Positions 2,552 through 10,228 of a stretch of 64,000 bases of DNA are shown in pieces. The stretch comes from Pseudomonadota bacterium (GTDB lineage Bacteria; Pseudomonadota; Gammaproteobacteria; Nitrosococcales; Methylophagaceae). The stretch's first letter is position 1, and the number at the start of each line of letters is the position of its first letter. The stretch covers positions 1-64,000 of the forward strand of contig JALIBN010000009.1 of the NCBI GenBank assembly GCA_030576275.1, written 5' to 3'. Position numbers and translations under genes: made by a program. A model generated the notes under the pieces. The model was not told where the DNA came from. It did no database searches and worked only from the letters and a program-made list of their open reading frames with translations.

Positions 2552-3091
2552 ATGGAGAAAAAAATCCAAAACTCGCATAACGAACTCAATTTTCGCAAGC
2601 CCGTACTGAACGATGGCTACGCCATATATCAGCTGATAAAATCATCCCCACCATTAGATCTGAATTCGAGCTACTTGTATTTTTTACAAGCCTCGCATTT
2701 TTCAGATACCTGTATCGTCGTTGAACAAGAGGACGTGATCATTGGCTTTATTTCTGCCTACTATCAACCCGACAAACCTCAATCACTTTTCGTTTGGCAG
2801 GTTGCAATCGCAGAAAACGCGCGTGGAAAAGGTTTAGCTAAGGCAATGTTACTCGCTCTAATTAAGAATCAACCAAGCGACTCAGCAATGACTGAGCTCG
2901 CCTGCACTATCAGCCCATCTAATAAGGCATCACAAGGCCTCTTTGGCTCGTTTGCAAAAACGCACGGACTCATAATGCAAACCTCACCCTTCATAAATGA
3001 AACACATTTTGGTGAGGATAATCACGAGGCCGAAGACCTCTACATTATTAGCGCTGCTGACAATACAAAATTAATCCCTTATTTTTCTTAA
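2552..3091 (+). CDS. ectA: L-2,4-diaminobutyrate N-acetyltransferase
   Basis: Acetylates L-2,4-diaminobutyrate with acetyl-CoA to N-gamma-acetyl-diaminobutyrate, the second dedicated step of ectoine synthesis in the cytoplasm. The 179 residues form one GNAT fold: strand-helix start FRKPVLNDGYAIYQLIKS, the acetyl-CoA-binding motif A at about 94-102 (ARGKGLAKAML), and the EctA-type ending with ACTISPSN.AS..LF. Length is normal for the family. The ATG at 2552 has no strong ribosome site; no better in-frame start is seen. It is the first gene of ectABC-ask, 11 bp before ectB. EctA normally acts after EctB although it is encoded before it. Confidence 0.95.
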   Translation: MEKKIQNSHNELNFRKPVLNDGYAIYQLIKSSPPLDLNSSYLYFLQASHFSDTCIVVEQEDVIIGFISAYYQPDKPQSLFVWQVAIAENARGKGLAKAMLLALIKNQPSDSAMTELACTISPSNKASQGLFGSFAKTHGLIMQTSPFINETHFGEDNHEAEDLYIISAADNTKLIPYFS

Positions 3092-3102
3092 AGGAATACA
3101 AC

Positions 3103-4386
3103 ATGACATTATCAATATTCAACAAATACGAATCTGAAGTTCGTGGTTACATCCGTTCTTTCCCCGTTATTTTCAACAAAGCTAAAATGGCTGAAATTTG
3201 GGATGAATCAGGAAAGCGCTATGTAGACTTTTTTGCTGGTGCCGGTGCGTTAAACTACGGCCACAACAATCCTAAAATCAATGAAGCGATCATTACCTAC
3301 CTTAATAACGATGGTATCGGTCATGCTTTGGATATGGGTACGGTTGCTAAACGCGAATTCATAGAAAGCTTTGTTTTCAAAATACTCAAACCTCGTGACT
3401 TAGATTATAAACTGCAATTTGTTGGTCCGACAGGAACCAATGCCATTGAATCGGCGCTTAAAATTGCTCGTAAAGTTAAAGGTCGTAAGCAAATCATGTC
3501 ATTTACCAACGGCTTTCATGGTATGTCATTAGGCTCATTGAGCATCACAGGTAACAGTTATTACCATGATGACAGCTACGGTGTTCCTGGCTACACTACC
3601 CAGATACCTTTTCATGATTATTTAGGTGATAAAGTCGACACGATTGCATATCTAAGAAAGATTTTAGGTGATGACTCTAGCGGTACCGAGCTACCTGCAG
3701 CTATCGTTTTGGAAACCATCCAAGCTGAAGGCGGAATTAATGTCGCCGGTGAACAGTGGCTGAAAGATTTGCGTCAAATCTGTAATGATTTCGACATCTT
3801 AATGGTTGTCGATGACATTCAAGTAGGTAATGGCCGTTCAGGTGATTTCTTCAGCTTTGAAAGAGCGGGAATCAAACCGGACATCGTCACCCTATCGAAA
3901 TCTATTGGTGGTGGTCTACCAATGGCAATGGTACTTCTCAAACCGGAACTTGATAAATGGAGTCCTGGTGAACATTCTGGAACGTTCCGTGGTTATAACC
4001 TTGCGTTCGTGGCTGCTACTGTTGCCATTGATACCTATTGGTCAGACGATTCCTTCTCAAAAGAAATCAAAGTTAAAGCAACACTTGTCGAGAAACGTAT
4101 GCAGAGTCTGGCGCTACGCTTTGCCGAGCAAATTCGTGAAATACGTGGCCTCGGTATGATTTGGGGGGCTGAATTCAAAGACCCTGAAATCACCTCAGCC
4201 ATTTGTGCACAATCTTTTGAGGATGGTCTGATAATTGAAACCGCTGGTGCGTCTGGCGATGTTATTAAATTCTTAGGCTCGTTAATCATTACTGAAGATT
4301 TGATTAACGAAGGCTTTGATATTTTAGAAAATGCCATTGTCAAAGTGCTAAAAAACTCAAATAGCACTAATGACGAGGTTGCTTAA
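3103..4386 (+). CDS. ectB: Diaminobutyrate-2-oxoglutarate transaminase
   Basis: Converts L-aspartate 4-semialdehyde and L-glutamate to L-2,4-diaminobutyrate, the entry step of ectoine synthesis. It is a class-III PLP aminotransferase of 427 residues, normal for EctB. Visible signatures are GPTGTNAIESALKIAR (cofactor phosphate region, about 107-122), the Asp pair in VVDDIQVGNGRSG that contacts the pyridine nitrogen, and the Schiff-base Lys266 in LSKSIGGGLP. An AAAGGA ribosome site lies just before the ATG. Its TAA overlaps the ATG of ectC by one base (TAATG), indicating translational coupling. Confidence 0.97.
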   Translation: MTLSIFNKYESEVRGYIRSFPVIFNKAKMAEIWDESGKRYVDFFAGAGALNYGHNNPKINEAIITYLNNDGIGHALDMGTVAKREFIESFVFKILKPRDLDYKLQFVGPTGTNAIESALKIARKVKGRKQIMSFTNGFHGMSLGSLSITGNSYYHDDSYGVPGYTTQIPFHDYLGDKVDTIAYLRKILGDDSSGTELPAAIVLETIQAEGGINVAGEQWLKDLRQICNDFDILMVVDDIQVGNGRSGDFFSFERAGIKPDIVTLSKSIGGGLPMAMVLLKPELDKWSPGEHSGTFRGYNLAFVAATVAIDTYWSDDSFSKEIKVKATLVEKRMQSLALRFAEQIREIRGLGMIWGAEFKDPEITSAICAQSFEDGLIIETAGASGDVIKFLGSLIITEDLINEGFDILENAIVKVLKNSNSTNDEVA

Positions 4387-4784
4387 TGATTGTTAAAAAT
4401 CTTTATGATGATGTAATTGGTACTGATGCTGATGTAGATGCCGAGCAATGGACTAGCCGTCGTTTATTACTTGCCAGTGATGGCATGGGATTTTCACTTC
4501 ATGACACGCTGATAAAAGAAGGTGAAGATCTTAACCTTTGGTATAAAAACCACCTTGAAGCCGTATATTGCATTGAAGGTCGAGGCGAAATAATCGAAAA
4601 GAAAAACGGTAAAGTTCACCCTATTCGTGAAGGGACGGTATATGCGCTGAATGATAATGATCAGCATACCCTGCGTGCTAATAAAGGTGTTGGTATGCGT
4701 ATGGTATGCGTATTTAACCCGCCTGTTACTGGTCGTGAAACCCATGATAAAGATGGTTCCTACCTATTACCTGAAACAGATTAA
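4386..4784 (+). CDS. ectC: L-ectoine synthase
   Basis: Cyclises N-gamma-acetyl-diaminobutyrate to ectoine by water elimination, the last step of the pathway. The 132-residue protein is a single cupin: the HLEAVYCIEGRGEI segment (about 57-70) and the YALNDNDQHTLRA segment (about 85-97) contain the acidic, Tyr and His residues known in the family for metal and substrate binding. The start overlaps the ectB stop by one base. No ectoine hydroxylase (ectD) follows, so this locus alone would make ectoine and not hydroxyectoine. A long palindrome separates it from the aspartokinase gene. Confidence 0.97.
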   Translation: MIVKNLYDDVIGTDADVDAEQWTSRRLLLASDGMGFSLHDTLIKEGEDLNLWYKNHLEAVYCIEGRGEIIEKKNGKVHPIREGTVYALNDNDQHTLRANKGVGMRMVCVFNPPVTGRETHDKDGSYLLPETD

Positions 4785-4807: not shown

Positions 4808-4845
4808 GCATTTAAGGATGGTCAAACTTGACCATCCTTAAATGC
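4808..4845. repeat. 38-bp intercistronic palindrome between ectC and ask
   Basis: Arms GCATTTAAGGATGGTCAA (4808-4825) and its exact reverse complement (4828-4845) are separated by only two bases (AC). In mRNA this would form an 18-bp perfect hairpin about 24 nt after the ectC stop and 28 nt before the ATG chosen for ask. There is no U-tract after the stem, so it is not a standard intrinsic terminator. It could adjust expression of the aspartokinase relative to ectABC by stabilising or processing the mRNA, or be a protein-binding site. Confidence 0.85.
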
Positions 4846-4872
4846 CAAACAGAGATAAATACTGCAAATAGC

Positions 4873-6318
4873 ATGTCAAATACTCCAAATAGAAAGTTAA
4901 GCATAGAAAAAATTGGTGGCACTTCAATGAGTGACTACCCCGCCGTACGAGATAACATTGTTCTCTATTCGAATAATCCTTATCATCGTGTACTCGTTGT
5001 GTCCGCCTATAGTGGGATCACGGATGATCTCTTAGAGCATAAGAAAACCGGACAGCCCGGCGTCTATGGACTCTTTGCACATAATGATAATAAAGATGAT
5101 TGGTTGCTCGCCTTTCAACAGCTTGGTTTAAAGCTCACTCAAGTCAACAAAACACTCTTTACAAATATAGAGCAACTGGCGTTAGCCAATGACTTTATCA
5201 ATGAACGTATCGCCAAGACCAAGCAACTACTAAATCATCTCCACATTTTGTGTAATCATGGCCATTTTTCATTAGATGACCATTTACTTACGGTTCGTGA
5301 ATTATTGGCCAGTATAGGCGAGGCACACAGTGCCTGGAACTTAAGTCAATTACTCAAAAATGAAGGCGTCAACACCTGCTTTATAGATTTGACCGGCTGG
5401 GAGTCAGAAGAAAAACAGCCATTGGATAACGTTATTACTGAACATCTCGAGGGAATAGACTTCAGTGAAGTATTACCGATTGTGACCGGTTACACTCACT
5501 GTCGTGAAAATCTAATGAATAGCTTTGATCGAGGCTATAGTGAAATGACCTTTAGTCGAATTGCAGTTATTTTAAACGCAACCGAAGCCGTTATTCATAA
5601 AGAATATCATCTCAGTAGTGCAGACCCACGATTGGTCGGGGAAGAGCAAGCTATTCCCATTGGTAAGACCAACTACGATATTGCCGATCAACTGGCTAAT
5701 CTCGGTATGGAGGCAATCCATCCCCATGCGGCGAAAGGTCTGCGTCAAGCTAAAATCGCCCTGCGAATAAAAAATACCTTTGAACCAGAGCATCATGGAA
5801 CACTTATCACTGATGATTACATTAGTGAATCACCACAGGTAGAGATCATCGCTGGAATGCATCATTTAATTGCATTGGAAATGTTTGATCAAGAAATGGT
5901 CGGGCAGCAAGGTCTCTACGAAAAAGTGCTGATTGATATGGCTGCTCGCTTGAAATGTAAGGTCATTACTAAAGACTTTAATGCCAATACCATTACAGTT
6001 TTCTTGGACATCTCCCTCAAGAGAGCTAAACTTCTTGCAGAGCAATTTAAACAGCACTTTCCGACTACGGCGGTTAATACCAGAAAAGTATCACTAGTTT
6101 CAGCGATGGGTAGTGATATGCGAATCAAAGGTTTATTAGCAAGATCGGTGCAAACACTGTACAACCATAAGATAAATGTCGAAGCCATGCATCAGAATAT
6201 TCGCCAAGTGGAAATGCAGTTTTTCGTCAATCAAAGTGACTATGAGATAACCGTTAAAGCCCTGCATACCAGCTTAATTGAAATACATGACCACGGAAAA
6301 GCCATATGCGAACATTAA
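4873..6318 (+). CDS. ask_ect: Ectoine-type aspartokinase
   Basis: Phosphorylates L-aspartate with ATP to supply aspartate 4-semialdehyde for ectoine. A TTG start at 4828 is possible in frame but lies inside the palindrome. The ATG at 4873 gives 481 residues, in line with the specialised Ask of ectoine clusters, and places the kinase motif KIGGTSMSDY near the N-terminus. The middle has SFDRGYSEMTFSR in place of the GRGGSD loop of ordinary aspartokinases, and HLSSADPRLV. The C-terminal 150 or so residues carry paired ACT domains (VSLVSAMGSDMRIKGLLAR, then NIRQVEMQFFV). In known ectoine clusters this isozyme is relatively insensitive to amino-acid feedback, which would uncouple ectoine supply from lysine and threonine regulation. 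Its 3' end overlaps the next gene by 13 nt. Confidence 0.92.
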   Translation: MSNTPNRKLSIEKIGGTSMSDYPAVRDNIVLYSNNPYHRVLVVSAYSGITDDLLEHKKTGQPGVYGLFAHNDNKDDWLLAFQQLGLKLTQVNKTLFTNIEQLALANDFINERIAKTKQLLNHLHILCNHGHFSLDDHLLTVRELLASIGEAHSAWNLSQLLKNEGVNTCFIDLTGWESEEKQPLDNVITEHLEGIDFSEVLPIVTGYTHCRENLMNSFDRGYSEMTFSRIAVILNATEAVIHKEYHLSSADPRLVGEEQAIPIGKTNYDIADQLANLGMEAIHPHAAKGLRQAKIALRIKNTFEPEHHGTLITDDYISESPQVEIIAGMHHLIALEMFDQEMVGQQGLYEKVLIDMAARLKCKVITKDFNANTITVFLDISLKRAKLLAEQFKQHFPTTAVNTRKVSLVSAMGSDMRIKGLLARSVQTLYNHKINVEAMHQNIRQVEMQFFVNQSDYEITVKALHTSLIEIHDHGKAICEH

Positions 6319-7190
6319 TATTGTTTACTATTCTCTGTTTTTTCTCTCCATTCAGCTATGCTGCACAAGTGCATGACAAGGAGACTCAAGACGTAACAAA
6401 ACTCACTGAGCCTATGTACAATCCTTTTGTAGAGCGATACGTGATGGATGAGCTCAGGCAGTTACGTGTCGACATGAATACTATGCATGTTGACATGACT
6501 AAGGAAGTGGTTAATCGTGAGCTAACCGCGACAACGCGTGCGGTGGGTTATGCAACCGATACCGTTACCTACTTCTTCTATTTAATAGCCGGAATAAGTT
6601 CCGTGTTACTTTTAGTTGGTTGGAACTCCATCCGCGAAATCAGAGATAAAGTACTGAACCTCGCAGATAATAAAGTCAACAAAGTCATTTCAGAATATGA
6701 AGACCGACTCGAAAAATTTGAAAAAGAGTTGCATAGCAAATCAATCGGTATCAACCGTGCCCAAAAACTATTGTCACGGCATCAAGATATTCATAGTCTA
6801 TGGTTAAAAGCTGGGCAGGAACAAATCCTCAGCAATCGTCTCAATATTTATGATCAGATTTTAGAAATTGACGCAGAAAATACAGAAGCCATGACCTATA
6901 AAGCAGATTTGGCCTTAGAGATGAATGAACCGCAATGGGCTATTAACTTATCTAATCAAGCCTTAGTCATTGATCCTGAGAATAAACACGCTTTCTATCA
7001 ATTAGCTGGCGCCTATGCCTTACTCAATCAGCCTAATGAAGCACTATTAAACCTAGAAAAAGTTATTAATGATGCCGAAGGCATGGCTGCAGAAGAAGTG
7101 CTTAATGATCCTGTTTTCAAATCACTGCTAGACAATCCGCAGTTTCAGAAACTCTTGCAACAAGATCAAGAGCTACCACCTCACGCTTAA
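6306..7190 (+). CDS. Membrane-anchored TPR protein at the end of the ectoine operon
   Basis: Function unknown. The 294 residues begin with a signal-like segment (MRTLILFTILCFFSPFSYAA). A periplasmic stretch follows, then one membrane helix at about 87-106 (VTYFFYLIAGISSVLLLVGW), a charged probable coiled coil at about 108-142, and tetratricopeptide-type helices at about 160-250 (IYDQILEIDAENTEAMTYKA, ALVIDPENKHAFYQLAGAYA). The topology suggests a short periplasmic N-terminal part and a cytoplasmic TPR scaffold. Its start lies 13 nt inside ask and a strong terminator follows its stop, so it belongs to the ectoine transcript. A link to osmosensing, ectoine traffic or enzyme organisation is inference from position only; it could also be an unrelated passenger. 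Confidence 0.8.
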   Translation: MRTLILFTILCFFSPFSYAAQVHDKETQDVTKLTEPMYNPFVERYVMDELRQLRVDMNTMHVDMTKEVVNRELTATTRAVGYATDTVTYFFYLIAGISSVLLLVGWNSIREIRDKVLNLADNKVNKVISEYEDRLEKFEKELHSKSIGINRAQKLLSRHQDIHSLWLKAGQEQILSNRLNIYDQILEIDAENTEAMTYKADLALEMNEPQWAINLSNQALVIDPENKHAFYQLAGAYALLNQPNEALLNLEKVINDAEGMAAEEVLNDPVFKSLLDNPQFQKLLQQDQELPPHA

Positions 7191-7197
7191 TCAAAAT

Positions 7198-7228
7198 AAA
7201 GGGGATAGCACCATCGCTGTCCCCTTTT
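7198..7228 (+). terminator. Terminator of the ectoine operon
   Basis: AAAGGGGATAGC (7198-7209) and GCTGTCCCCTTT (7216-7227) pair over 12 bp with one G-U pair around ACCATC. TTTT runs from 7225 to 7228. It closes ectABC-ask and the TPR gene. Confidence 0.9.
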
Positions 7229-7449: not shown

Positions 7450-7764
7450 TTAGCCATCTAAGCTTGTTTTAACATCGGGAAATAAGATATCCATACTTCT
7501 AGCATCGCCAACAAGTAATGCTAAGTCTTGATCAACAAAATCACCTTCAAAACTGATCGCCCCAAATCGCATTGCTAAACTCTGTGCTTTTGGTGAAAAA
7601 TACAGTGTCCATGTATTTGATGCTAGATCGTGACTAGAAAACACGGCCATATCCAATGGTCTACCTGCGCCTATATATTTGGGCATGAAGGCATCCATTA
7701 TTCTTTGCATCGTTGTTTTTGCTACATCACCACCAGTTATTTCTAATGAATACCACATTTCCAT
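7450..7764 (-). CDS. Hypothetical protein, 104 aa
   Basis: Family not recognised. A further ATG lies upstream at 7788, but the ATG at 7764 has a perfect AAGGAG box 6 nt before it, so the shorter form is chosen (start MEMWYSLEITGG). The product is a soluble mixed alpha/beta protein with no signal peptide, membrane helix or cysteine cluster. The good ribosome site supports a real gene. It stands alone on the minus strand, downstream of the SOS cassette by about 150 bp and facing the end of the ectoine operon. Function cannot be inferred. Confidence 0.6.
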   Translation of the reverse strand: MEMWYSLEITGGDVAKTTMQRIMDAFMPKYIGAGRPLDMAVFSSHDLASNTWTLYFSPKAQSLAMRFGAISFEGDFVDQDLALLVGDARSMDILFPDVKTSLDG

Positions 7765-7918
7765 CACAAGCTCCTTAATTGTTGTCATACAATCCTAGCA
7801 ACATTCATTAAATAATCAACATGAAATTAAGATTGTCGCTAAATAAGAGCCTTATACACCAGTTCAAGACTTAGTCTGCACATTACAATAGTAGGGAACT
7901 CTTGGTTAAGTTTTTAAT

Positions 7919-8359
7919 TTAAATTAGGCGCCTTAGGCTCTTTTCACCCTGTTGAATGACCCTTGGCCAGCGGTTATGAATATTGGCATCTTCCATTTCG
8001 GGTTCAATAGTCACTACGTAAATACGATGTTCGTTATTGTCTCTAGCCAGTAACCCTTGTAGATATTGCCCTTTATTAAGGTCATACCAATGACTATTGC
8101 CTTCAAGGTCCTTTTCCATAAAACTAAGCACAGGTATTTTAAGTGGTTGCGGGAAATATTTATCCCAACGTCCACCATAAATGGAATCTAGTCTTGCCCA
8201 GCCGCCCAGAGGTAGATTGCCCATCTGGCTTTGTCGTCTCCCCCATGGTATTAATATCAGACTACCATCTTTTTTTTGCACGGGAAGTACTGCTTTGGGA
8301 TTGGGAAAATACTGTCTAAGTACGTCACCCTGATGTTCAAAATACACGCCACCGCACAT
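7919..8359 (-). CDS. Compact SRAP-like (YedK/HMCES-related) protein
   Basis: SRAP proteins form thiazolidine cross-links with abasic sites in single-stranded DNA through Cys2. This 146-residue protein starts MCGG, so Cys2 is exposed after Met removal. Segments that align by eye to SRAP are GGWARLDSI (family NAR.ET), VLSFMEKD (family GFYEW, Glu82) and ANIHNRWPRVI (family IH.RMPVI, His128). It is much shorter than YedK (about 220 residues), and the family Asn of NAR is Trp54 here. The ATG overlaps the stop of the polymerase gene by one base (TAATG), so the two are translationally coupled. This supports a role in damage tolerance. It may be a divergent active SRAP or a binding-only variant. Confidence 0.7.
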   Translation of the reverse strand: MCGGVYFEHQGDVLRQYFPNPKAVLPVQKKDGSLILIPWGRRQSQMGNLPLGGWARLDSIYGGRWDKYFPQPLKIPVLSFMEKDLEGNSHWYDLNKGQYLQGLLARDNNEHRIYVVTIEPEMEDANIHNRWPRVIQQGEKSLRRLI

Positions 8360-9594
8360 TAAATTGTCTTCCTATGCCCTGATGGTTTCCAAGATGGGGC
8401 GATGACATTAGGCATGGCGCTACGATCGATTAATCTGCTCGGCGCTACAGCAAATTCACCATAGCGTTGGTTAATTTGATCTATAGCTAGATTAAGCTTT
8501 TCGCGTTGTTTATATTGATTAGTTTCTGCAAATAAATCAGCTTGTTGCTCACGATCAGGATTAAGTGCGGTCACTTGTACTTGCCATACGCCCTGCCCTT
8601 GCCAGTGTTTCATGGTGAACTGACGGCATTGTGTAAACAGCGTTTGTCCATCATCAGTGGATTGGCTTAACCTAGCTTTTGTTTGTAACCAGCCTTGCTC
8701 TGTTTTGAGTCCAATATAAAAATGACTGGCCTTAAAATGATGTTTTCTGAGCCTTACCGCTACCTTTTCACTCATGTGTTGGAAATAGGTCAGGATAGTA
8801 GTTAAATCTTTTGTTTGTGGTGGCATGACTTTACCGTGACCAATTGTTTTAGGCGCTTGTACATTGCTTTGTACAACATCAGGATCTTTGCCTTGTGCCA
8901 TCAACCATAGTCGTCGGCCTAAGTTACCAAAACGTTTAGCTGGAATACTGATTGGAATGCGTTTCATGTCACCACAGTTAATCACGCCATATTGGGCTAA
9001 GAAACCTGCTGTACCCTTGTTGATACCGCTTAGTTCGGTAACATGCAATGGTGCCAAGGTGGCTTCAGCATGCCACGGTTCAATGACCGTAAGTCCGTCA
9101 GGTTTATGGAGTTTAGCGGCATACTTAGCCGTCGTTTTGTCACCACTAACACCAACACTGCATGTTAAGCCTGATACCTTGCTGACCGTCTGTTTAACTA
9201 ACTGCCCGATCTCAAAAGGCGTGCCTAATAGGCTTTGGCAATGGGTCACGTCCAGAAAGGCCTCATCAACGGAATAAACCTCTAAATCAGGAGTAATACT
9301 TTCCAACGCCGCCATAATCTTGGTTGATATTTCTGCATAACGATGTGGCCGCGAGGGCGCTTGGATCAGTTCAGGGCAGAGTTGCCATGCTTCTTTGAGT
9401 CGCATCCCTGTTTTGATGCCATAGCTTCTAGCCTCATAACTCGAGGTAATAATAGTCGTGCCTTGTCCACCGTTAGTTACGGCTATAGGTCGATTACGCC
9501 AAAAAGGATTATCTTGTTGTTCTATTTGGGCAAAGAAACAGTTCATATCGATAAGGATTATGCACCTTTGCCATGGTTGAGATGCCTGTTCCAC
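8359..9594 (-). CDS. Y-family (translesion) DNA polymerase
   Basis: Error-prone polymerase of the DinB/UmuC superfamily, 411 residues. Catalytic carboxylates sit in LIDMNCFFAQIEQ (Asp16) and YSVDEAFLDV. Between them are the fingers motifs TIITSSYEARSYGIKTGM and RPHRYAEIS. Helix-hairpin-helix and little-finger regions follow (LSGINKGTAGFLAQYGV, GHGKVMPPQT). The start is GTG at 9594, 25 bp after the lexA-like gene, with no strong ribosome site. SVDEAFLD and the neighbourhood look more UmuC-like than typical Pol IV, but the C-terminus is short, so I give no symbol. It sits between a LexA-type repressor and an SRAP-like gene and is therefore probably SOS-induced. Confidence 0.88.
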   Translation of the reverse strand: MEQASQPWQRCIILIDMNCFFAQIEQQDNPFWRNRPIAVTNGGQGTTIITSSYEARSYGIKTGMRLKEAWQLCPELIQAPSRPHRYAEISTKIMAALESITPDLEVYSVDEAFLDVTHCQSLLGTPFEIGQLVKQTVSKVSGLTCSVGVSGDKTTAKYAAKLHKPDGLTVIEPWHAEATLAPLHVTELSGINKGTAGFLAQYGVINCGDMKRIPISIPAKRFGNLGRRLWLMAQGKDPDVVQSNVQAPKTIGHGKVMPPQTKDLTTILTYFQHMSEKVAVRLRKHHFKASHFYIGLKTEQGWLQTKARLSQSTDDGQTLFTQCRQFTMKHWQGQGVWQVQVTALNPDREQQADLFAETNQYKQREKLNLAIDQINQRYGEFAVAPSRLIDRSAMPNVIAPSWKPSGHRKTI

Positions 9595-9619
9595 TCGCGT
9601 TAAGAAACGTTAAGAGACA

Positions 9620-10228
9620 TTAGGAATAAGTACGGAGTTGGCCAACCACCACACCTTGGATCATTACCCGTTCGGCAGGCAGTGTAACTGGCTCGTAATC
9701 AGCGTTGGCTGGTTGTAATGTGACTGTTCCATCGTTATTGATAAGCAATGTTTTTAAGGTGGCATCATGAAAATCAACAAGCGCCAACACAATATCACCA
9801 TGATTCGCTGTACGTTGTTCCTGAAGCACGACATAGTCACCTGACATGATGGCTTTATCTATCATCGAATCACCATTTACCTTCAACACAAAGCGACCAC
9901 TACCGCTAAACATCTCACCTAAATCTATTTCTGATTCATCAGGTACTGCTTCGATTAACCGGCCTGCAGCAACCTTACCTAATAAAGGTAAGATGACCGA
10001 CAGCCTTTCCGACTCATTATGTTGTTCGATTAAACGTAAGCCACGAGATCTACCTACAGCACGTTCAATCAATCCTTCATTAACGAGCGCTTGAATGTAG
10101 TTATGAACGGAGCCCTGAGAAGATAAGCCAATACCATGAGCAACTTCGGATAATAAGGGTGCACGTTGATGCTCTTCAAAGTAATGAACAATAAAATTGT
10201 AAGTGTCTTGTTGACGATCAGTTAACAT
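9620..10228 (-). CDS. lexA: LexA-family SOS repressor with a divergent DNA-binding domain
   Basis: Self-cleaving transcriptional repressor, 202 residues. Residues 1-65 are a winged helix (MLTDRQQDTYNFIVHYFEEH, then LSEVAHGIGLSSQGSVHNYI). The C-terminal S24 domain has the cleavage bond Ala88-Gly89 (KVAAGR), catalytic Ser121 (VNGDSM) and Lys159 (DATLK), so autoproteolysis should work. The recognition helix (SSQGSVHNYIQAL) is unlike E. coli LexA (SPNAAEEHLKAL), so the operator is probably not the CTG-N10-CAG type. This may be the genome's LexA or a second, cassette-specific copy. It leads lexA-polymerase-SRAP and presumably represses them and itself. A GAGG box lies 9 nt before the ATG. Confidence 0.85.
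   Translation of the reverse strand: MLTDRQQDTYNFIVHYFEEHQRAPLLSEVAHGIGLSSQGSVHNYIQALVNEGLIERAVGRSRGLRLIEQHNESERLSVILPLLGKVAAGRLIEAVPDESEIDLGEMFSGSGRFVLKVNGDSMIDKAIMSGDYVVLQEQRTANHGDIVLALVDFHDATLKTLLINNDGTVTLQPANADYEPVTLPAERVMIQGVVVGQLRTYS

Follow-up and report, generated by a model that had tools for sequence, protein, structure and literature searches.

The ectoine operon of a gammaproteobacterium of the family Methylophagaceae (GenBank assembly GCA_030576275.1, contig JALIBN010000009.1) closes with a gene for a membrane-anchored tetratricopeptide repeat (TPR) protein. The same gene sits directly behind the ectoine-type aspartate kinase gene, ask, in nine family-rank groups, and its presence tracks that of the ectoine synthase gene, ectC, even where the two genes lie apart. 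We studied it in a stretch of 64,000 nucleotides, positions 1 to 64,000 of the contig, called the window throughout. An earlier note on this DNA had held that the TPR gene begins 13 nt inside ask and belongs to the ectABC-ask unit, and both statements stand: the overlap is exact, and gene order and a 13- or 16-nt overlap are kept across the nine groups. We think it very probable that the TPR protein serves ectoine or osmoadaptation in the window organism. Whether it is more particularly an accessory adaptor subunit of the ectoine osmoprotection system, coupled to the translation of ask and tying ectoine provision to the membrane, we regard on the sequence evidence as an evenly balanced question. 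The operon is laid out as follows.

2552..3091, plus strand: ectA, diaminobutyrate acetyltransferase (TIGR02406, 180.7 bits against a cut-off of 120.6)
3103..4386, plus strand: ectB, diaminobutyrate transaminase (TIGR02407, 621 bits against a cut-off of 552)
4386..4784, plus strand: ectC, ectoine synthase (PF06339, 185.9 bits, above its curated cut-off)
4828..6318, plus strand: ask, ectoine-type aspartate kinase (NF006614/PRK09181, 715 bits against a cut-off of 536); the start is a mechanically assigned TTG, and the real start possibly lies further in
6295..6298, plus strand: GGAA, ribosome-binding-like, within the end of ask and 8 nt ahead of the TPR start (read from the sequence)
6306..6318, plus strand: overlap of ask and the TPR gene, exactly 13 nt (coordinates of the open reading frames, ORFs)
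6306..7190, plus strand: membrane TPR gene, 294 aa, ATG start (ORF list, Pfam, NCBIfam)
7198..7227, plus strand: terminator-like hairpin 3' of the operon (-20.2 kcal/mol, z -6.5)

How widely is this arrangement kept? Among 70 distinct homologues (loci identical over the last 200 residues of the TPR protein were counted once), 37 sit directly after ask on the same strand, and these span the groups f1, f54, f87, f126, f139, f151, f158, f188 and f198; the search for the ask-TPR pair in other genomes that the earlier note had suggested thus came out positive. The overlap with ask measures 13 nt in 30 of the linked homologues, 16 nt in five, 10 nt in one and 4 nt in one. Their common layout is a ribosome-like site inside ask together with the sequence ATATG, and purine stretches similar to the GGAA of the window occur in most of their ask ends. 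Because many genomes keep identical gene order and overlap, the arrangement is more than chance, and on a tree of the TPR proteins (L010, a bare TPR match, was left out) the ask-linked state changes 7 times, against a shuffled mean of 23.6. Having been selected for an open frame, the 70 homologues could include no broken copy. At nine loci from close relatives, in records of Methylophaga, Thiomicrorhabdus, Thiomicrospira and Hydrogenovibrio (two of them from the same-genus genomes G001 and G006), ectC, ask and the TPR gene stand in this order in all nine; ectA is matched in eight, and the remaining locus, L029, starts inside ectB.

The gene follows ectC well beyond these neighbours. Of 369 Gammaproteobacteria drawn evenly across the class, 13 have the TPR gene, 51 have ectC and 11 have both, and in a phylum draw of 398 genomes the corresponding counts are 19, 58 and 15. 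The Hydrogenovibrio/Thiomicrospira family (f54) has the TPR gene in 31 of 62 genomes and ectC in 43; all 31 carriers are ectC-positive, and none of the 19 genomes without ectC carries the TPR gene. Nine of the 13 carriers in the class draw adjoin ect genes. Among these nine, G288 shows no ask, and its TPR gene lies about 0.7 kb after ectC, the intervening stretch (L053:9823-10539) being packed with short near-identical repeats; in G307 the locus lies at a contig end with an ask fragment. In G098 and G231 ectC lies away from the TPR gene. In f54 the TPR gene lies away from the ect genes in seven of the 31 carriers (G231, G432, G434, G436, G456, G460 and G462).

In a draw of 59 relatives, nine genomes, including that of the window, have a TPR match: G000, G001, G006, G024, G030, G034 and G035 carry the full-length gene, and G045 and G051 show weak TPR-only matches. 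Here ask is present in 11 genomes, and G021 and four genomes of genus g7, of the same order, have it with no TPR-gene match. The presence of ask was compared in 30 of the 51 class-draw genomes with ectC: six of nine TPR carriers have it, as do three of 21 non-carriers (p 0.008). Counting G396 as ask-present gives seven of nine and p 0.0017, a correction that is one-sided because the non-carriers were read to about 1.5 kb only.

At genus level, ectC occurs in 10 of the 12 carrier genera of the class draw versus 40 of 271 genera overall (Fisher 9e-8). On an rpoB tree of f54, covering 54 of the 62 genomes (seven genomes gave no match, and G407, which matched only in part, was left out), there are only two independent pairs on well-supported branches and four in all, with a median p of 0.5; in the few supported pairs the TPR gene goes with ectC or shows no difference, never the contrary. 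Genome by genome, Fisher tests of the association between the TPR gene and ectC give 7e-8 in f54, 8e-9 in the class draw and 1e-10 in the phylum draw, values that ignore relatedness.

That property of the Fisher values is one of several points that weigh against a role in ectoine supply. Carriers without ectC exist, two of 13 in the class draw (G149, G179) and four of 19 in the phylum draw (G179, G520, G657, G699), and two of the 15 phylum-draw genomes carrying both genes (G587, G622) have ectC without ectA or ectB within the roughly +/-6 kb read. Most ectC genomes lack the TPR gene (40 of 51 in the class, 43 of 58 in the phylum), so ectoine synthesis is possible without it. Nor is ask obligatory in carriers: the stretches read in G288, G460 and G462 contain ectABC and no ask. 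The same-genus genome G021 keeps ectABC-ask and the overlapping ATG, and its TPR frame stops about 20 codons in; its Ask protein also retains an intact C-terminal tail with no TPR partner. To these may be added the low confidence of the AlphaFold2 model outside the TPRs.

Several of these observations would suit a protein that is a general envelope or osmotic-stress adaptor of salt-living Proteobacteria, one that has no contact with the ectoine enzymes and that some lineages drew into the ect operon because co-expression under salt is useful. Relatives of the TPR protein occur on 20 plasmid or megaplasmid records of Pseudoalteromonas, Vibrio and Salinivibrio, all less than 60% identical. Five of these records were inspected, of which four have no annotated ect gene within 6-8 kb and the fifth, H20, had no annotation; a tblastn search of the five with the ect proteins of the window gave no match. 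Such stand-alone relatives favour a general adaptor, as do the carriers without ectC and the operon of genome G634, in which the ectABC-ask-TPR run continues on the same strand into opgG and opgH (L148:10504-14035), genes for osmoregulated periplasmic glucans. Against it stand the strong association with ectC, the fixed overlap with ask in nine family-rank groups, and the unlinked carriers of the Hydrogenovibrio family, which keep ectC. On balance we consider a general adaptor possible, though clearly the less favoured account. Wide occurrence apart from ectoine genes, which the earlier note had regarded as telling against its proposal, is seen in part: full-length relatives exist in the ectC-less genomes G149, G179, G520, G657 and G699, and so do the stand-alone relatives, but presence mostly tracks ectC. 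The association of the TPR gene with ectoine is real and wide, not exclusive, and the coupling is much broader than the operon alone suggested: the gene recurs beside ectoine genes in many marine bacteria and seems to be a genuine, overlooked component of the system.

Could the gene be a passenger, adjacent by descent and carried along with ectABC-ask, with no role in ectoine supply? The history of the operon bears on this. The RecA protein of the window genome shares 89-91% identity with that of its sister genus g3 and 83-84% with that of the f54 genomes G427 and G440. The cassette gives the opposite picture: identities to G427 are 74% (ectA), 85% (ectB), 94% (ectC), 80% (ask) and 80% (TPR), those to g3 are 41-43, 51-52, 48-54, 54-57 and 47-50%, respectively, and on the TPR tree the window nests beside G427 and G440. 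Because RecA favours g3 while every cassette protein favours G427, the five-gene cassette has evidently been exchanged as one block with the f54 family. Taken alone, block transfer weighs little, because linked genes move together anyway; what adds weight is retention, together with the unlinked carriers.

A passenger would fit the many ectC genomes that lack the gene, and also its deletion in G021, where a stub (L032:8440-8640) looks like the relic of the deleted TPR gene. That genome is 73, 84 and 70% identical to the window in ectB, ectC and ask, and since it lost the TPR gene and kept ectABC-ask, the gene is dispensable in at least one carrier of ectoine genes. A passenger would not be expected, on the other hand, to lack internal stops in 12 of 13 class-draw, 31 of 31 f54 and 19 of 19 phylum-draw matches, to conserve its overlap with ask, or to keep company with ectC once off the operon. 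Moreover, the gene reaches the ectoine neighbourhood in three ways: after ask; divergent from ectA, in the Vibrio-family genome G772; and, in G587 and G622 (L155:8789-10441 and L269:5723-7332), divergent from a MarR-type gene resembling one found upstream of ectA elsewhere. We take this MarR-type gene to be ectR-like from its position, its NCBIfam MarR matches lying below the cut-off. A mere passenger is thus very improbable.

What kind of protein does the gene encode? The description in the earlier note, a membrane-anchored coiled-coil and TPR protein, is borne out by the hydropathy of the transmembrane segment, by the coil and by the TPR models. Its parts are the following.

6306..6365, plus strand: signal-peptide-like segment, residues 1-20, ending in SYAA (hydropathy)
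6402..6479, plus strand: conserved, predicted periplasmic motif LTEPMYNPFVERYVMDELRQLRVDMN, residues 33-58 (alignment; mean share of the commonest residue 0.72 over 30 sequences)
6555..6623, plus strand: transmembrane helix, residues 84-106 (hydropathy maximum)
6624..6818, plus strand: long helix or coiled coil, residues 107-171 (AlphaFold2; PDB sequence matches mainly to coiled coils)
6828..7067, plus strand: TPR solenoid, residues 175-254 (Pfam, AlphaFold2, Foldseek)
7089..7160, plus strand: TPR end-of-group helices, residues 262-285 (NF047558 match at residues 229-285; AlphaFold2 helices at 262-285)

The C-terminal half is readily assigned. It belongs to the TPR superfamily, with TPR_17 at 27.0 bits (cut-off 24.4), TPR_19 at 25.8 bits (cut-off 25) and two to three TPR units, and to the TPR end-of-group family NF047558, at 54 bits (cut-off 32). 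Foldseek matches are mainly TPR domains, such as those of SGT, HOP and CHIP, and a PDB search with the C-terminal piece returned TPR proteins only. An AlphaFold2 model built from an input of 10 sequences (mean predicted local distance difference test score 68.5, predicted template modelling score 0.45) shows helices at 40-101 and 107-171, then the TPR solenoid at 175-254 and the end helices.

The N-terminal half is distinctive. It has no Pfam match above cut-off in the window protein (best E 0.042), and in 11 further members it gave scattered weak Pfam matches, the best (E 0.00045) to intermediate filament; among PDB sequences it matches mainly coiled coils (best E 0.014), with no convincing relative. 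Residues 1-20 resemble a cleaved signal peptide, and 65 of 70 homologues have a loose small-x-Ala pattern ahead of the conserved motif. The motif itself carries the family signature EP-Y-PF-ERY--DEL-QLR, in which P40, E43 and Y45 are invariant across the 30 sequences aligned. The most conserved stretches of the protein are this motif and the transmembrane helix as well as the TPRs, and conservation of the periplasmic and membrane parts is a further argument for a general envelope adaptor. Homologues average 3.1 lysine or arginine residues past the transmembrane helix and 1.1 ahead of it, which would place the C-terminus on the cytoplasmic side; a single-pass inner-membrane topology with the C-terminus inside is, for a prediction, well argued.

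How might such a protein serve ectoine supply? We propose that its translation would be coupled to that of the ectoine aspartate kinase and that its coiled coil would make it oligomeric. The TPR domain would bind at least one ectoine-supply protein, for which Ask is the first candidate and, in relatives that have one, a linked sodium/solute symporter the second. The periplasmic helix would anchor the protein to the envelope or report the state of the envelope; ectoine provision would thereby be tied to the membrane, and the ectoine level might be affected. Osmotic neighbours speak for this reading too: a symporter gene at some loci, opgGH in G634, and ectA or the ectR-like gene in divergent arrangement in G772, G587 and G622. 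Osmosensing and enzyme localisation, the two roles offered by the earlier note, are conjectural.

The idea that the protein docks Ask specifically is more doubtful than its membership of the system. It turns on the Ask C-terminal tail. In linked genomes the start codon and ribosome site that overlap it can by themselves hold the tail constant, so that its conservation there is uninformative on docking; the unlinked genomes are those that count. Five unlinked f54 genomes keep the tail LIEVH[DN]HG.AIA.H although the overlapping TPR start codon is gone, and pairwise comparison of its 14 codons gives 58 silent versus 18 replacement codon differences. Ask proteins of g7, Vibrio-family and f242 genomes lack this tail. 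These data lend weak support to a role for the tail, of which a docking peptide for the TPR domain would be one reading; the persistence of the tail in G021 and its absence from TPR carriers of the Vibrio type speak against docking. (We take group f185 to be the Vibrio family, since Vibrio sequences from the plasmid records group with it in the TPR tree.) One can extend the idea to a TPR protein that would be a turgor- or envelope-reporting receptor for the tail (H[DN]HG.AI..H), its TPR domain holding Ask, and by way of Ask the ectoine enzymes, at the inner membrane in a membrane-bound ectoine production complex whose flux would be set by the periplasmic and transmembrane part and whose uptake would fall to the linked symporter, but we hold this fuller scheme to be improbable.

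The symporter invites an account of its own, in which the TPR protein would control this downstream transporter and so balance the synthesis and uptake of ectoine or another osmolyte. At 10 of the 25 loci compared (L030, L034, L035, L036, L053, L057, L059, L268, L270 and L271), from nine genomes, L030 and L270 belonging to one, a PutP-like sodium/solute symporter is encoded behind the TPR gene on the same strand, and the linkage spans groups f1, f54, f126, f151 and f169; the G414 locus, for example, reads ectABC-ask-TPR-symporter. But neither a symporter nor an ectR-like gene was found in the window, and no symporter is present in the stretches read at L025-L028, L031, L054, L056, L062, L147 and L148. 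Against the query from L034 the symporters reach just 42-77% identity, their family scores fall under the curated cut-offs, and in G024 a symporter gene stands behind ectC without the TPR gene. We therefore rate control of the transporter as unlikely, below even the general adaptor, and keep the accessory subunit of the ectoine system as the preferred reading. The symporter behind the TPR gene is possibly a transporter of ectoine or another osmolyte belonging to the same operon.

Other neighbours vary. A DUF502 gene follows the TPR gene in G249, and a 301-aa ORF between ectC and ask in G197 (L054:12162-13067) is presumably the ectoine hydroxylase gene ectD, to judge from its place. Ahead of ectA in the window lies a DUF481 outer-membrane-type gene (885-1976), also found beside the ect genes in the two closest relatives (L023, L024). 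Past the operon, on the minus strand, 7450-10228 holds lexA, a Y-family polymerase gene of the umuC type, and ORFs of 146 and 112 aa that have no Pfam match. The TPR gene is present in one copy in the window genome. Between it and these genes, the hairpin at 7198-7227 has a 12-bp stem with just four U behind it. The strong terminator of the earlier note survives as a stable hairpin and is plausible as a terminator, a grade that reflects the short U run and the absence of the hairpin from the consensus terminator scan of the window. Promoters and terminators called by consensus scan were set aside, as their counts were no higher than in shuffles.

The ectoine pathway of osmoprotection has been studied intensively and is used in industry, yet a conserved membrane gene closing its operon in many marine chemolithotrophs and methylotrophs appears, in the open-licence literature, to be undescribed. 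We found there no paper linking a TPR gene to ectoine loci, a provisional absence. Should the protein indeed sense the envelope or gather enzymes, it would connect the sensing of salt with ectoine flux and offer a handle on yield; Hydrogenovibrio marinus, for one, is reported as already used for ectoine production from CO2 (PMC12129253).

Among known TPR proteins, the window protein matches the magnetosome protein MamA weakly in sequence and also in structure, and membership of the MamA family was rejected (NF040959, 26.7 bits against an equivalog cut-off of 200), as was that of the XrtA/PEP-CTERM protein PrsT (TIGR02917, 26.6 bits against 312). The TPR module of MamA coats a membrane; MamA is not known to have a transmembrane or periplasmic part of the kind seen here. 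With the NF047558 proteins the window protein has a C-terminal domain in common, and that model is silent on the signal peptide, periplasmic motif, transmembrane helix and coil. LapB/YciM and YfgM of Escherichia coli combine one membrane anchor with a TPR domain in an adaptor role, with a domain order and location unlike those of the window protein; their family models are absent from its Pfam and NCBIfam matches. The single phage-family match, phrog_7590, is weak and covers the coil and TPR part. The Vibrio c-di-GMP proteins RcbA and RcbB, compared by description only, were set aside because their several TPRs with a cyclase or other C-terminal domain form an unlike layout, as far as the excerpt consulted describes them (PMC12282931).

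The closest known system is the ectABC-ask cluster itself. The sections of a review of ectoine genes that we drew on list ectAB, ectD, ask_ect and ectR (PMC5924519), and the word TPR is absent from the text of that review. The cluster described in those sections and the operon type of the window have identical enzymes in the same order, with a specialised aspartokinase, and an ectR-like gene lies upstream in some relatives; relative to the list given there, the window-type cluster differs in its membrane TPR gene, a conserved extra element.

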